Shown here: one piece after another, positions 32,296 to 36,767 of the stretch | How the letters are laid out: each line of letters begins with the position of its first letter | How positions within the stretch are numbered: position 1 is the first letter of the stretch | Assembly: GCA_019973575.1 (NCBI GenBank) | Contig: BPUI01000001.1 | Span: forward strand, 1,996,342-2,060,341 | Source: Gemmatimonadetes bacterium T265 | GTDB lineage: Bacteria; Gemmatimonadota; Gemmatimonadetes; Gemmatimonadales; Gemmatimonadaceae | DNA length: 64,000 nucleotides | Reading direction: 5' to 3' | Program-made: the position numbers and the translations under genes | The notes under the pieces: model-generated | Seen by the model: only the letters and a program-made list of their open reading frames with translations | Databases searched by the model: none | What the model was told of the DNA's origin: nothing

Positions 32296-32793
32296 TCAGC
32301 AGGGGCGCCGGACCGTGCGGCGCGCGAACCGCACGACGCCGTCCGGGCGCGGCACGCGCACGACGTCGACCGGCGCGGTCATCACCGCGGCCGTCATGCA
32401 GCCCGGCCCCGGTTCGGTGACGGTGTAGTCCACCACCGTGTCGGGGCCGTCGCGCCGGACGTTGGTGACCCGCACGTCGTACCCGCCCGAGCTCCGCGGT
32501 CCGATCGCGACGAGCACGACGCTCGACGTCGTGAAGTCGACCGCCGGGAGTGGGGGCGCGACCATCCCGTTGTTCAGCTGCGCCCACGCCGCCTCCCACG
32601 CGGCGCGGTCGCGCAGGACGGTCTCCTCGCCGGTCGGGTACTGGCTCATCTGCGCGTGGTAGATCGATTCGGGCGCGGCGGGCTGTGACACGGGGGGCGG
32701 GTGGTGGTCCGGGCGTGCGGCCGGCGCCGGCCCGCCCGGCGTGCAGGCGGCGAGGGCGGCCGTTAGGCCGAGGATGACGCGGAAGCCTGGCAT
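32296..32793 (-). CDS. PrcB-like lipoprotein
   Basis: A 165-residue lipoprotein with a lipobox near residue 16 (LTAALAAC). The C-terminal domain (about 60-160) matches PrcB_C: an ERDRAAW-like segment, VVLVAIGPRSSGGYDVRV, VDYTVTEPGPGC and a VVRVPRPDGVVRFAR ending. In oral spirochaetes PrcB is a lipoprotein partner of the dentilisin subtilase. The neighbouring subtilase lipoprotein at 29908 makes a functional link plausible, though the genes are convergent and separated by the PEP-CTERM gene. Confidence 0.75.
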   Translation of the reverse strand: MPGFRVILGLTAALAACTPGGPAPAARPDHHPPPVSQPAAPESIYHAQMSQYPTGEETVLRDRAAWEAAWAQLNNGMVAPPLPAVDFTTSSVVLVAIGPRSSGGYDVRVTNVRRDGPDTVVDYTVTEPGPGCMTAAVMTAPVDVVRVPRPDGVVRFARRTVRRPC

Positions 32794-32871: not shown

Positions 32872-34566
32872 TCAATCCGTCGCGCCGAGTACGTGCACGG
32901 ACGCGACCCGGTCCGCGACGCGCGCGATCGAGGCGGGCTCGCCGCCGCGGACGACGGCGAGCGGTCCCGGGTTCGCCTCCTCGCCGGGCGCGAGGACGCG
33001 CGTGGCGCCCTGTTCGGCGAGCAGCGCGTCGGTCCGCGCGCGCAGCCGCCCGCTGCTCCACTCCGGGTGCTCGAATTCCACCGCGATCGGGAGCCCGCCC
33101 CACCGCGCGAGACAGCCGCGGAGTGCCTCCGCCCGCTCGCGGCTCGGCCCGAACTCGCGCGGCGCCCGGACGAGCACCGCGCCGAGCGCGCCGCGCCCGG
33201 CGAGCACGTCGACCGCTGCGCGGAAGCGGGCGTGGAGCGCGTCGCGGACCGCGTCGGGCACGTGTTCGCCCGCGACGCGCTCCGCGCCGGCGAGTGCGGG
33301 CGGGAGCAGGTCGCGGACGGCCCGCGGGAGGCGGTGCGGGCGGACGGGTCCGCCGAGCAGGGCGGTGTGCGCGTAGACGTCGAAGAGGAGGCCGGCGGGG
33401 GCGCGGGCCGCCCAGAGCGCGGCGAGGGCCGGAGCGAACACCCGCGCGCGCGTCGACGCGGCGACCGCGAGCGGGTAGCGGGCGGCGTAGTGACGCAGCC
33501 GCGCGGCGGCGTCGGGCGGCGGGTCGGCGTTAGGGGCGAGGGCGTCGGCGTCGTCCCGCTCCCAGGCCGAGGTGCCGGCGTAGACGAGCGCGCGGCCGAC
33601 CCGCCGCGGCGCGACGGCGTACCCCGCGTCGCCGCGCTCCTCGTCGGCGCGCTCGTGGTCGGCACACTCGTCGTCGGCGCGCCCCTCGGCCGCAGGCGGC
33701 GCCGCGTCCGGGGCGGCCCCGACCGCGGCCGGCGCGGGCGTGCGGCGCGTCGCCGCGGCTTCGACCATGCGGCGCACGCGGGCGGGCGCGTCGCGGACCA
33801 TCGGCGCGATGAGCGGCGCCTCGGGGAGGTTCCGCCAGTAGCGCTTCGGCATCTCCGCGCGCATCGCCTGCAGCTTGACGCGCGCCGGGTTGAAGACGTG
33901 CGCGTAGTACGTGCCCCAGAGGTGCTCGAGCGCGTCGGCCGAGGGGGCGGCGCGGCGGGGGACGCCGGGGCCGACGCTGAGCGCGGCGCCGTCCCAGCGG
34001 ACCGAGACGCGCGGCGTGAGCACGGCCCAGCGCATGTTGGCGAAGCGGCGGACGAAGAGCTCGGCCGCCTGCTCGACGACGTCGTGCTCGGGCTCGAACC
34101 AGGCGACGTACTCGTCGACGCCGTCGGCCGCGCGCACGAGGCGGAAGCGCACGAACGCGTGCAGCTTGTGCACCTCGCGCCGGACCGCCTTCGCCATGCG
34201 GGCGAGCTGGAGCACGTCGGGGTCGACGGCCACGGCGAGCAGGTGCGGCTCCCCGCCGCGCGTGAGCCGCCAGAGGACGCGGTAGAGCGTCGCCCAGCGC
34301 TCCGGGTCGCGGTGGCAGGCGACCATCGCGCCGAGCGCGAGGAAGCGGCGCGGCACGGCGGCGGCGGGGTGCGCGGCCGGAACGCTGGCCGCGTTAGGCG
34401 CTGGCGCCGGGCGCGGCGCGGCGTCGGGCGCGTCGAGCGGGAGGGCGTGCTGCGCGTCGCCGGCGGGCTGCCAGACGGCGTGCGCCGGCGCGAGGTCGGC
34501 CGCGAGCGCCGCGCGCGCCGCCGCGCGCCAGCCCTCGAACGTGCCGTCGAAGGGGACGGCCGGCAT
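32872..34566 (-). CDS. TIGR03915 (DUF4130) DNA repair-associated domain fused to DUF72
   Basis: A 564-residue fusion. Residues 1-275 follow TIGR03915/DUF4130: FDGTFEGWRAAARAAL at the start, a KLHAFVRFRLV segment, WFEPEHDVVEQAAELFVRRF, and KRYWRNLPEA near 255. This family always accompanies the radical SAM protein encoded just upstream. After an acidic linker (about 275-325), residues 326-560 resemble a DUF72 TIM barrel: YAGTSAWE, RLRHYAARYPLAVAAST, a FDVYAHTALLGG segment and IAVEFEHPEW. In known genomes the C-terminal partner is a uracil-DNA-glycosylase-like domain; DUF72 here is unusual. The gene lies 21 bp after the radical SAM gene. Confidence 0.8.
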   Translation of the reverse strand: MPAVPFDGTFEGWRAAARAALAADLAPAHAVWQPAGDAQHALPLDAPDAAPRPAPAPNAASVPAAHPAAAVPRRFLALGAMVACHRDPERWATLYRVLWRLTRGGEPHLLAVAVDPDVLQLARMAKAVRREVHKLHAFVRFRLVRAADGVDEYVAWFEPEHDVVEQAAELFVRRFANMRWAVLTPRVSVRWDGAALSVGPGVPRRAAPSADALEHLWGTYYAHVFNPARVKLQAMRAEMPKRYWRNLPEAPLIAPMVRDAPARVRRMVEAAATRRTPAPAAVGAAPDAAPPAAEGRADDECADHERADEERGDAGYAVAPRRVGRALVYAGTSAWERDDADALAPNADPPPDAAARLRHYAARYPLAVAASTRARVFAPALAALWAARAPAGLLFDVYAHTALLGGPVRPHRLPRAVRDLLPPALAGAERVAGEHVPDAVRDALHARFRAAVDVLAGRGALGAVLVRAPREFGPSRERAEALRGCLARWGGLPIAVEFEHPEWSSGRLRARTDALLAEQGATRVLAPGEEANPGPLAVVRGGEPASIARVADRVASVHVLGATD

Positions 34567-34587
34567 CAGCGCGCGCTCACGCCGCGG

Positions 34588-35988
34588 TCACAGCTCGCCG
34601 AGGAGTACCGAGCGCGCGGACGCGCCGGCTGTAGCCGCGCCGGCCGTGAAGCCACCGCCGGTCCCCACCCCCGCGAACAGGTCGGTCTGGACCGCCGCGG
34701 CGCGCGGCCGCGCCGCGAGCAGCCGCTCGCGCAGGTCGCCCGCGTCGAGCAGCCGCGGCGTGTGGTCGGCGGTGACGACGAAGGGCAGCGCGCGCTTCAC
34801 CACGACCTTGAGTGCAACGAGATCGGCGAGCCGCAGCCGGCACCAGCGCCGGGTCGCGAGGATGCGCTCGACGCTCCGCGCGCCGACGCCGGGGACGCGC
34901 AGCAGCACCGCCTTCGGCGCGCGGTTCACGTCGACCGGGAAGTCGGCCCGGTTGCGGAGCGCCCACGCCAGCTTCGGGTCGAGCGCGAGGTCGAGGTCCG
35001 GCGCGTCCGGCGTCGTCAGCTCCGCCGCCCGGAAGCCGTAGAAGCGCACGAGCCAGTCGGCCTGGTACAGCCGGTGCTCGCGCACGAGCGGCGGCGACAG
35101 GCTCGGCAGCGCCGTCGGCGCGTCGGGGATCGGGCTGAAGGCGGAGTAGTAGACGCGCCGCAGGCGGTGCGTCGCGTAGAGCGAGGTCGCGGTCGCGAGG
35201 ATCGTCGCGTCGGTCGCGGGCGTGGCGCCGACGATGAGTTGCGTGCTCTGCCCCGCGGGCGCGAACAGCGCGGGTGCGGCGGCCGCCCCCGGGGCCGCGT
35301 TGGGCCGCCGCGCGGCCGCGCGCCGCAGCGTGACGAGCGCGGGCCCGCGCGGCGCCCGGGTGTCGGCCGCGGCCGCGCGCGCCTCGTCGATACGCCCGCG
35401 GATCGCGGTCATCGCGCCGCGGATGACGCCGAGATCCTTTTCCGGCGCGAGCGCGGCGAGATCCCCCGCCGTCGGCAGTTCGGCGTTGATGCTCAGCCGG
35501 TCCGCCCAGCGCCCCGCCTCCGCGATCAGCTCGGGGCTCGCGTGCGGGATCGTCTTGAGATGGATGTATCCCTGGAAGTCGTGCGCGACGCGGAGCGTGC
35601 GCGCGACCTCGACGAGTTGCTCCATCGTGTGGTCGGGCGACCGCGCGATGCCGGACGAGAGGAACAGCCCCTCGATGTAGTTGCGGCGGTAGAAGTCGAG
35701 CGTGAGGCGGACGACTTCGGCCGGCGTGAAGCGGGCGCGCGCCACGCCGCTCGACCGGCGGTTGACGCAGTAGAGGCAGTCGTAGACGCAGTAGTTGGTG
35801 AGCAGGACCTTGAGCAGCGACACGCAGCGCCCGTCGGGCGTGTAGCTGTGGCAGATGCCCATCCCCTCGGTCGAGCCGACGCCGCCGGTGCCCGCGGCGG
35901 CCCGGCGCCCCTTGGAGCCGCTCGACGCGCACGACGCGTCGTACTTCGCCGCGTCGGCCAGGATCGCCAGCTTCGCTTCGAGGTCCAC
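34588..35988 (-). CDS. Putative DNA modification/repair radical SAM protein (TIGR03916)
   Basis: A 466-residue protein. KLAILADAAKYDASCASSG at 6-24 is the family opening, followed by GICHSYTPDGRCVSLLKVL. The [4Fe-4S] motif CxxxCxxC occurs in TNYCVYDCLYCVNRRSSG near 70. The HhH-like DNA-contact segment VPGVGARSVERILATRRW lies near 367-384. The family binds SAM and an iron-sulphur cluster and is always linked to TIGR03915 or UDG-like partners; the reaction is unknown. An Ala/Arg/Pro-rich insertion near 200-245 and a Gly/Ala-rich tail after 435 extend it. It forms a two-gene operon with the DUF4130-DUF72 fusion. Confidence 0.9.
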   Translation of the reverse strand: MDLEAKLAILADAAKYDASCASSGSKGRRAAAGTGGVGSTEGMGICHSYTPDGRCVSLLKVLLTNYCVYDCLYCVNRRSSGVARARFTPAEVVRLTLDFYRRNYIEGLFLSSGIARSPDHTMEQLVEVARTLRVAHDFQGYIHLKTIPHASPELIAEAGRWADRLSINAELPTAGDLAALAPEKDLGVIRGAMTAIRGRIDEARAAAADTRAPRGPALVTLRRAAARRPNAAPGAAAAPALFAPAGQSTQLIVGATPATDATILATATSLYATHRLRRVYYSAFSPIPDAPTALPSLSPPLVREHRLYQADWLVRFYGFRAAELTTPDAPDLDLALDPKLAWALRNRADFPVDVNRAPKAVLLRVPGVGARSVERILATRRWCRLRLADLVALKVVVKRALPFVVTADHTPRLLDAGDLRERLLAARPRAAAVQTDLFAGVGTGGGFTAGAATAGASARSVLLGEL

Positions 35989-36079
35989 GTGTGCTCCTGG
36001 TGAGGCGGTGGGGGTACCGAATAACGGCCGAAAGCTAGTCTAACGTGGTGTGTTGGGCAGGGTGGGGGACGGCGCGGGT

Positions 36080-36353: not shown

Positions 36354-36767
36354 ATGCACGTCCAGTACGTCGCCGTGTGCGACCACGTCCTCGTCGGGGC
36401 TGACGGCAAGCCGTCGCTCATCGGCGTTTTCAGCGACATCCAGGCCGTCCAGGTCCCGGTCACGCTCCCCCGCCTCTCGTTCGCCGCGCGCCTCCTGCTC
36501 ACGGGCGACGAGACCGGGCGCACCTACAAGGCCGAAGTCGTCATCAAGGACCCTAAGGGCCAGGAGCTCGCGCGGCCCGGCGGCGAGATCAACGTCCCGC
36601 AGGTCCCGGCCGGGATCGACTCGATCGCGATCGACCTGCCGATGATCTTCGACATGTTCGGGCTCCCCGAGTTCGGCCGCTACACCTTCATGCTCGAGAT
36701 CGACGGCGAGCCCAAGGCGGGGGTGCAGATCGCCGTGCGCGAGGGCGCGCCGGGGCCGATGGCCTGA
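36354..36767 (+). CDS. DUF6941-like conserved hypothetical
   Basis: A 137-residue soluble beta-rich protein: VQYVAVCDHVLVGADGKPSLIGVF at the start, a LLLTGDETGRTYKAEVVIKDP strand pair and FGRYTFMLEIDGE near the end. This pattern matches the DUF6941 family, found widely in environmental bacteria without known function. It has no signal peptide. It is a single gene transcribed away from the radical SAM operon and convergent with the hypothetical at 36790. Confidence 0.75.
   Translation: MHVQYVAVCDHVLVGADGKPSLIGVFSDIQAVQVPVTLPRLSFAARLLLTGDETGRTYKAEVVIKDPKGQELARPGGEINVPQVPAGIDSIAIDLPMIFDMFGLPEFGRYTFMLEIDGEPKAGVQIAVREGAPGPMA

Follow-up and report, generated by a model that had tools for sequence, protein, structure and literature searches.

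A probably SOS-controlled radical SAM operon of Gemmatimonadota with an exchangeable C-terminal module and an eroded DUF72 domain

An SOS-regulated operon pairing a uracil-DNA glycosylase (UDG) gene with a radical S-adenosylmethionine (SAM) gene (COG1573-COG4277) has been described, and SOS control of this pair was reported in Bacteroidetes, Verrucomicrobia and Alphaproteobacteria (PMC8565304). Here, we analyze a related two-gene operon within a 64,000-nucleotide stretch of the genome of Gemmatimonadetes bacterium T265 (GCA_019973575.1, contig BPUI01000001.1, positions 1,996,342 to 2,060,341; hereafter the window), in which the second gene encodes a TIGR03915/DUF4130 protein fused to a C-terminal DUF72 domain. 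The first gene encodes a TIGR03916 radical SAM protein, and we take COG4277 to be the same family as TIGR03916. Among DUF72 proteins, Tm1631 has been likened to endonuclease IV, and modeling proposed positions for phosphate and DNA contacts (PMC3828134). DUF72 is also enriched near polB2, and its fold is close to that of UV-damage endonuclease (PMC11791011).

The reading we favor, with a probability of roughly 0.55, is that the locus is a probably LexA-controlled TIGR03916/TIGR03915 DNA-repair operon whose C-terminal module is exchangeable (UdgX or DUF72), and that the DUF72 domain of the window copy is most likely non-catalytic.

Recurrence of the fusion and exchange of its C-terminal module

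Open reading frames in the window place both genes on the minus strand (35988 to 34588, then 34566 to 32872), separated by 21 bp. An earlier note, made from the sequence without database searches, had assigned the first to TIGR03916 and read the second as a fusion of TIGR03915/DUF4130 with DUF72, and profile searches bear out both assignments. The radical SAM protein scores 546.6 bits against TIGR03916 (rSAM_link_UDG; curated cut-off 343.5, profile positions 1-401 of 415) in an NCBIfam search and 26.3 bits against Pfam Radical_SAM, slightly below the Pfam cut-off. The fusion protein matches TIGR03915 with 211.6 bits (curated cut-off 112.25, profile positions 3-243 of 243), Pfam DUF4130 with 127.6 bits (residues 88-249, whole profile 1-146 of 146) and Pfam DUF72 (PF01904) with 50.1 bits (gathering cut-off 25.3, residues 353-529). 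The predicted DUF72 match of residues 320-564 thus stands, with the qualification that it does not extend into the final third of the profile: it spans profile positions 7-143 of 217 only, where intact fusions span 1-215 or 1-216. No C-terminal UDG-type domain was detected in the fusion with Pfam, NCBIfam or a local profile.

The fusion is not an isolated artifact and recurs in seven other genomes. In the family to which the window genome belongs, TIGR03915 was found in seven of 179 genomes (the window genome G000, G234, G242, G201, G394, G296 and G299, representing four genera), and DUF72 is fused to it in all seven, although the G299 copy is cut by a contig end directly after the DUF72 start VRVGTASWTDPT. 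G429, which belongs to a sister family within the order, carries an eighth fusion. Five genomes from two further families of the class encode DUF4130 without DUF72. To place this distribution in a broader context, we surveyed 80 TIGR03915/DUF4130 loci from Pseudomonadota (30), Planctomycetota (6), Verrucomicrobiota (14) and Bacteroidota (30), and none contained a DUF72 fusion. As the earlier note had stated, the slot can hold a UDG-type (UdgX-like) domain elsewhere; this is the case for 23/30 loci in Pseudomonadota, 5/6 in Planctomycetota, 2/14 in Verrucomicrobiota and 0/30 in Bacteroidota, and in the other loci the slot is empty. DUF72 therefore takes the slot of UdgX in one lineage of Gemmatimonadales, and its presence in every TIGR03915 protein found in the family and in none of the loci surveyed from other phyla identifies the fusion as a lineage-specific, maintained architecture. 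Trees require one or two changes to account for its origin.

The fusion was likewise absent from all 31 loci in named genomes, and no plasmid record spans both of its halves. No phage record with the fusion was seen in a phage search that used the DUF72 part only, and a scan of viral contigs with the L010 fusion of G234 as sole query gave no match; a scan with alignment A1 returned 11 loci, which were used for structure alignment. A Bacteroidota locus with DUF72 two genes away from DUF4130 (L157/L158) was not counted, as no radical SAM gene lies in the 11 kb taken. Separately, a Gemmatirosa plasmid encodes a lone DUF72 (L053:5878-6900) with an N-terminal tail, HDPGFDVARQRAEA, that resembles the linker of the fusions, and this solitary protein may be a fission product.

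A shared upstream repeat and the repair neighborhoods of DUF72

Upstream of the operon lies a direct repeat of TTCGG with an 11-bp period (TTCGG-N6-TTCGG), and the same element precedes the radical SAM gene in all nine Gemmatimonadota loci that we read, in one of them with a single mismatch. The window genome contains 27 such sites (L171-L197), compared with one for the reversed control. Exact copies are positioned upstream of uvrA (TIGR00630, 1119.9 bits), a gene for a Rad52/22 protein (PF04098) and an imuA-imuB-dnaE2 cluster, in which dnaE2 passes the cut-off of its model and imuA and imuB give weak matches. lexA is preceded by two copies about 130 bp away, and recA by a one-mismatch site, TTCGTAGTTTGTTCGG. 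Because the element is common to lexA, uvrA, the rad52-like gene, imuA-imuB-dnaE2 and the operon, the latter is probably SOS-controlled; membership in the SOS regulon, with binding by LexA, is what this shared motif suggests. We propose TTCGG-N6-TTCGG as a candidate LexA box of Gemmatimonadota, for which we found no report in the literature searched. Several other sites appear chance-like or lack a clear target. The genome has two lexA genes (L198 and L199, on contig C2), with the repeat upstream of the first only. A triple TTCGG repeat also precedes a DUF5131 gene (L211:4019-4821) that weakly matches a radical SAM mobile-pair model.

Radical SAM genes of other phyla have upstream boxes of their own. 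The Verrucomicrobiota loci that we read carry TGTTC-N4-GAACA-like boxes, in agreement with the verrucomicrobial LexA motif. The Pseudomonadota loci that we read carry GAAC-N7-GAAC or GTTC-N7-GTTC boxes, the published alphaproteobacterial LexA motif (PMC8565304).

The window genome encodes a second TIGR03916 protein (393 bits, cut-off 343.5; L203:3519-4841(-), C1 about 2959518-2960840), whose gene lies about 16 bp behind an exact TTCGG box of its own and lacks a TIGR03915 partner in the genome. Since the genome has only one TIGR03915, the claim of the earlier note that the two families always travel together does not hold here.

DUF72 is a widespread domain, present in control genomes from E. 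coli to archaea. The best stand-alone matches of the subfamily found in the fusions are plasmid-borne. We read ten annotated neighborhoods. In three (L054, L056 and L058, Burkholderiales plasmids), DUF72 is the fourth gene of an imuA-imuB-dnaE2-DUF72 array transcribed in one direction; these proteins, of the same subfamily as the intact fusions, are 38%-50% identical to L010. Two others have imuA within about 6 kb, Ku is found near DUF72 in two (in one together with LigD), and three have no repair gene of the imu or Ku kind nearby. A further arrangement, in a Spartobacteria contig from a metagenome-assembled genome (L015:2167-5825), places DUF72, an Fpg-type glycosylase, a TIGR03916 radical SAM protein and DUF4130-UDG in a row. 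In Rhizobium phage RHph_Y65 (L170:3944-5201), a DUF72 gene overlaps one whose annotation is DNA recombination-mediator protein.

Erosion of the DUF72 domain in the window

To assess the integrity of the domain, we took five DUF72 proteins from intact fusions and eight that stand alone, which share 47 invariant alignment columns. The window copy keeps 20 of these, mostly structural, and has lost 27. All other fusions and the eight stand-alone relatives have an almost or completely invariant polar pocket (E, D/N, K, T, H, Q and R, along with the RLHG, Y-x-Y and FNN motifs). In the window, the substitutions comprise (intact-family residue first) E368V and D370A, both in the V-E-x-D motif, as well as Y373R, Y374A, K398Y, T404L, H406G, Q467R and R499E. 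Substitution or deletion has also removed RLHG, Y-x-Y and FNN, and about 60 residues have gone from the C-terminal third. Hallmarks cited in the earlier note fared unevenly: GTSAW is kept, "AAST" corresponds to a V-E-[IV]-D-x-[ST]-Y-Y motif that has lost its E, D and YY, and "EFEHPEW" to an E-[LF]-R-H-x-x-W motif that has lost its R. By motif place, and in our own reading, several of the lost residues appear to match the Tm1631 positions proposed for phosphate and DNA contacts (PMC3828134).

The erosion is seen in one domain and one lineage. Compared pairwise with its sister lineage, the window protein is 71% identical in DUF4130 and 41% in DUF72. On the tree, the DUF72 branch of the window measures 2.26 changes per column versus 0.11-0.12 in two sisters, making it about 20 times longer, while the corresponding DUF4130 branch measures 0.23. 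The DUF72 placement involves this long branch, and synteny agrees with it: three flanking genes beyond the radical SAM gene occur in the same order in the window and in G234 (L062), at 83%, 53% and 63% identity, making the window gene a positional ortholog of the L010 fusion. The domain of L010 is canonical. Searched against the Protein Data Bank (PDB) with phmmer, the DUF72 part of L010 finds 1vpy and 1vpq, whereas that of the window finds nothing at E <= 10, which indicates how far the sequence has drifted.

An AlphaFold2 (AF2) model of the window DUF72, built with 10 related sequences, is a closed barrel (predicted local distance difference test [pLDDT] 85.8, predicted template modeling score 0.84). 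Its nearest solved DUF72 structures in VIA-align are 1vpy (Z 20.2, root-mean-square deviation [rmsd] 2.3, 198 residues aligned) and 1vpq (Z 17.5), and Foldseek relates it to solved DUF72 structures with an E value of 1.4e-9. As the model leans on homologs, it indicates only that the sequence is compatible with the fold. The domain is probably a dead or repurposed barrel. Given the loss of the conserved polar pocket residues and of much of the last third, we consider it most likely non-catalytic, either a leftover scaffold or clamp or a decaying domain on a working radical SAM/DUF4130 pair.

Features of the locus are collected below. A model of the DUF4130 part (window 33697-34566) returned mostly RecJ/Cdc45/DHH proteins in the top rows of VIA-align (Z about 7-8.2, rmsd 4-5), a level that is common without a clear match, and Foldseek gave no confident fold (best E 0.034); a resemblance of DUF4130 to RecJ/DHH phosphoesterases is a lead only. 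The genes next to the operon encode a PrcB_C protein (32299-32793(-)) and a DUF6941 protein (36354-36764(+)), the latter with a counterpart of 83% identity at the equivalent position in G234.

Table 1. Positions of the operon, its predicted parts and the upstream repeat in the window
Feature	Position	Strand	Basis
Candidate LexA-type box TTCGGCCGTTATTCGG	36017..36032	(-)	TTCGG-N6-TTCGG, 28 bp before the radical SAM start codon
Radical SAM protein TIGR03916, 466 aa	34588..35988	(-)	TIGR03916 546.6 bits; Radical_SAM 26.3 bits
Radical SAM cluster motif CVYDCLYC (CX3CX2C)	35767..35790	(-)	Direct sequence reading
Helix-hairpin-helix-like stretch, radical SAM residues 337-380	34849..34980	(-)	HHH_3 and HHH_5 matches under Pfam cut-offs
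DUF4130-DUF72 fusion gene, 564 aa	32872..34566	(-)	Pfam and NCBIfam matches
TIGR03915/DUF4130 part, residues 6-250, every conserved motif present	33817..34551	(-)	211.6 bits; alignment with 30 relatives; AF2 pLDDT 83.7
Linker, residues 251-322	33601..33816	(-)	Between domain matches; no family match
Eroded DUF72 domain, residues 323-564	32875..33600	(-)	DUF72 50.1 bits; 20/47 conserved columns; branch 2.26; barrel model

Interpretation and comparison with known systems

We envision that DNA damage would free the operon from LexA, and that the radical SAM protein, with its CX3CX2C motif and helix-hairpin-helix-like tail, may then carry out radical chemistry on a damaged base together with DUF4130, which would act as its partner or adaptor. 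The C-terminal module of the DUF4130 protein, UdgX or DUF72, could recognize or process the lesion or product. Our data document the fusion and its recurrence, the exchange of modules, the shared box, the repair genes around close DUF72 relatives and the erosion in a single lineage; LexA binding, the substrate, the chemistry (including its action on nucleic acid), the division of labor and the loss of DUF72 activity in the window are inferred. Several observations weigh against this reading. We found no box by the four other DUF72 genes of the window genome in the 10-kb regions read. Many DUF4130 proteins, including 30/30 in Bacteroidota, have no C-terminal module of any kind, and the module is thus not essential to the radical SAM/DUF4130 pair. 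The DUF72 neighborhoods come mostly from a single order, Burkholderiales, and are not independent, and our literature search found no biochemistry for TIGR03916, DUF4130 or DUF72.

The state of the window DUF72 admits other explanations. The domain might have been repurposed in this species, keeping the barrel around a new pocket and still performing some function, though a different one. An uninterrupted frame runs through 245 codons, with L010 residues 8-534 aligning to the window in one frame, the codon composition is coding-like (G+C content at third codon positions 0.94), and the modeled closed barrel fits this idea as well. Nonetheless, nearly all conserved polar positions were lost together and most of the last third is gone, a pattern that resembles relaxed constraint, and there is no close relative at hand that could show new conservation; we therefore regard repurposing as unlikely. 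Sequencing or assembly error accounts for the erosion even less well. No second genome of the window genus carries the gene among the 179 family genomes, leaving a single copy with no cross-check, but alignments to six intact fusions all run in one frame, ruling out a frameshift, the in-frame substitutions and deletions are scattered across the domain, and the neighboring DUF4130 is normal. We give this explanation almost no weight.

Other alternatives concern DUF72 more broadly. If it served every fusion as a structural or DNA-binding part without catalysis, loss of the pocket would cost little, and one lineage indeed survives without it while DUF4130 stays conserved. The near-invariance of the polar pocket in all other fusions and the stand-alone relatives points instead to catalysis or specific ligand binding, making a general structural role rather improbable. 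It is more improbable still that DUF72 is unrelated to DNA repair, for instance a small-metabolite enzyme whose fusion is incidental. Such a function would accord with the finding that most non-DUF72 barrels similar to the model are sugar or small-molecule enzymes, and with the box-less DUF72 genes elsewhere in the genome. The retention of the fusion across four genera and two families speaks against it, as do the close stand-alone relatives found downstream of imuA-imuB-dnaE2 or in the vicinity of Ku and the further DUF72 in the Fpg-radical SAM cluster of L015.

Within the favored reading of an SOS-type repair operon with an exchangeable module, we tentatively suggest a more specific role, which is possible though doubtful: intact DUF72 may be a lesion-recognizing or DNA-incising SOS enzyme that replaces UdgX beside TIGR03916 and works with ImuB/DnaE2 elsewhere, the window copy being naturally inactivated and its barrel persisting as a non-catalytic part of a repair complex. 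The earlier note had taken the fusion as a guilt-by-association clue to DUF72 function. With the LexA-type box and the imuA-imuB-dnaE2 and Ku neighbors, the association of DUF72 with repair is stronger than was claimed; the window copy itself, with its pocket gone, is most likely not a DUF72 at work and is the one least suited to reveal the activity. A conserved fusion in a probable SOS operon, along with relatives behind imuA-imuB-dnaE2, provides a testable assignment of DUF72 to DNA-damage processing, and the exchange of UdgX and DUF72 in one slot indicates what kind of job to seek. The lineage that has naturally lost the pocket supplies a ready-made negative control, and the TTCGG-N6-TTCGG box, if it is the LexA box, would make the Gemmatimonadota SOS regulon predictable.

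Among described systems, the TIGR03916 and TIGR03915/DUF4130-UdgX pair most clearly parallels the window operon, sharing both families, the gene order and an SOS-type box upstream; the difference lies in the module, an eroded DUF72 rather than a UDG. SplB-like enzymes also provide a radical SAM protein in a repair setting, a comparison drawn previously (PMC3765255). Unlike SplB (spore photoproduct lyase), the window protein belongs to TIGR03916, and the spore photoproduct lyase model is absent among its NCBIfam matches at E <= 1. The solved DUF72 proteins TM1631 (1vpq) and EF0366 (1vpy, 1ztv) resemble the window domain in Pfam score over the cut-off and in being nearest to its modeled barrel (Z 17.5-20.2), but the window DUF72 is fused to DUF4130 and lacks conserved residues of the pocket as well as a large part of the last third. 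Finally, the Burkholderiales plasmid DUF72 proteins behind imuA-imuB-dnaE2 share the subfamily of the intact fusions and an SOS setting, yet are encoded by a separate gene with a mutasome as partner and no DUF4130 or radical SAM gene annotated adjacent.

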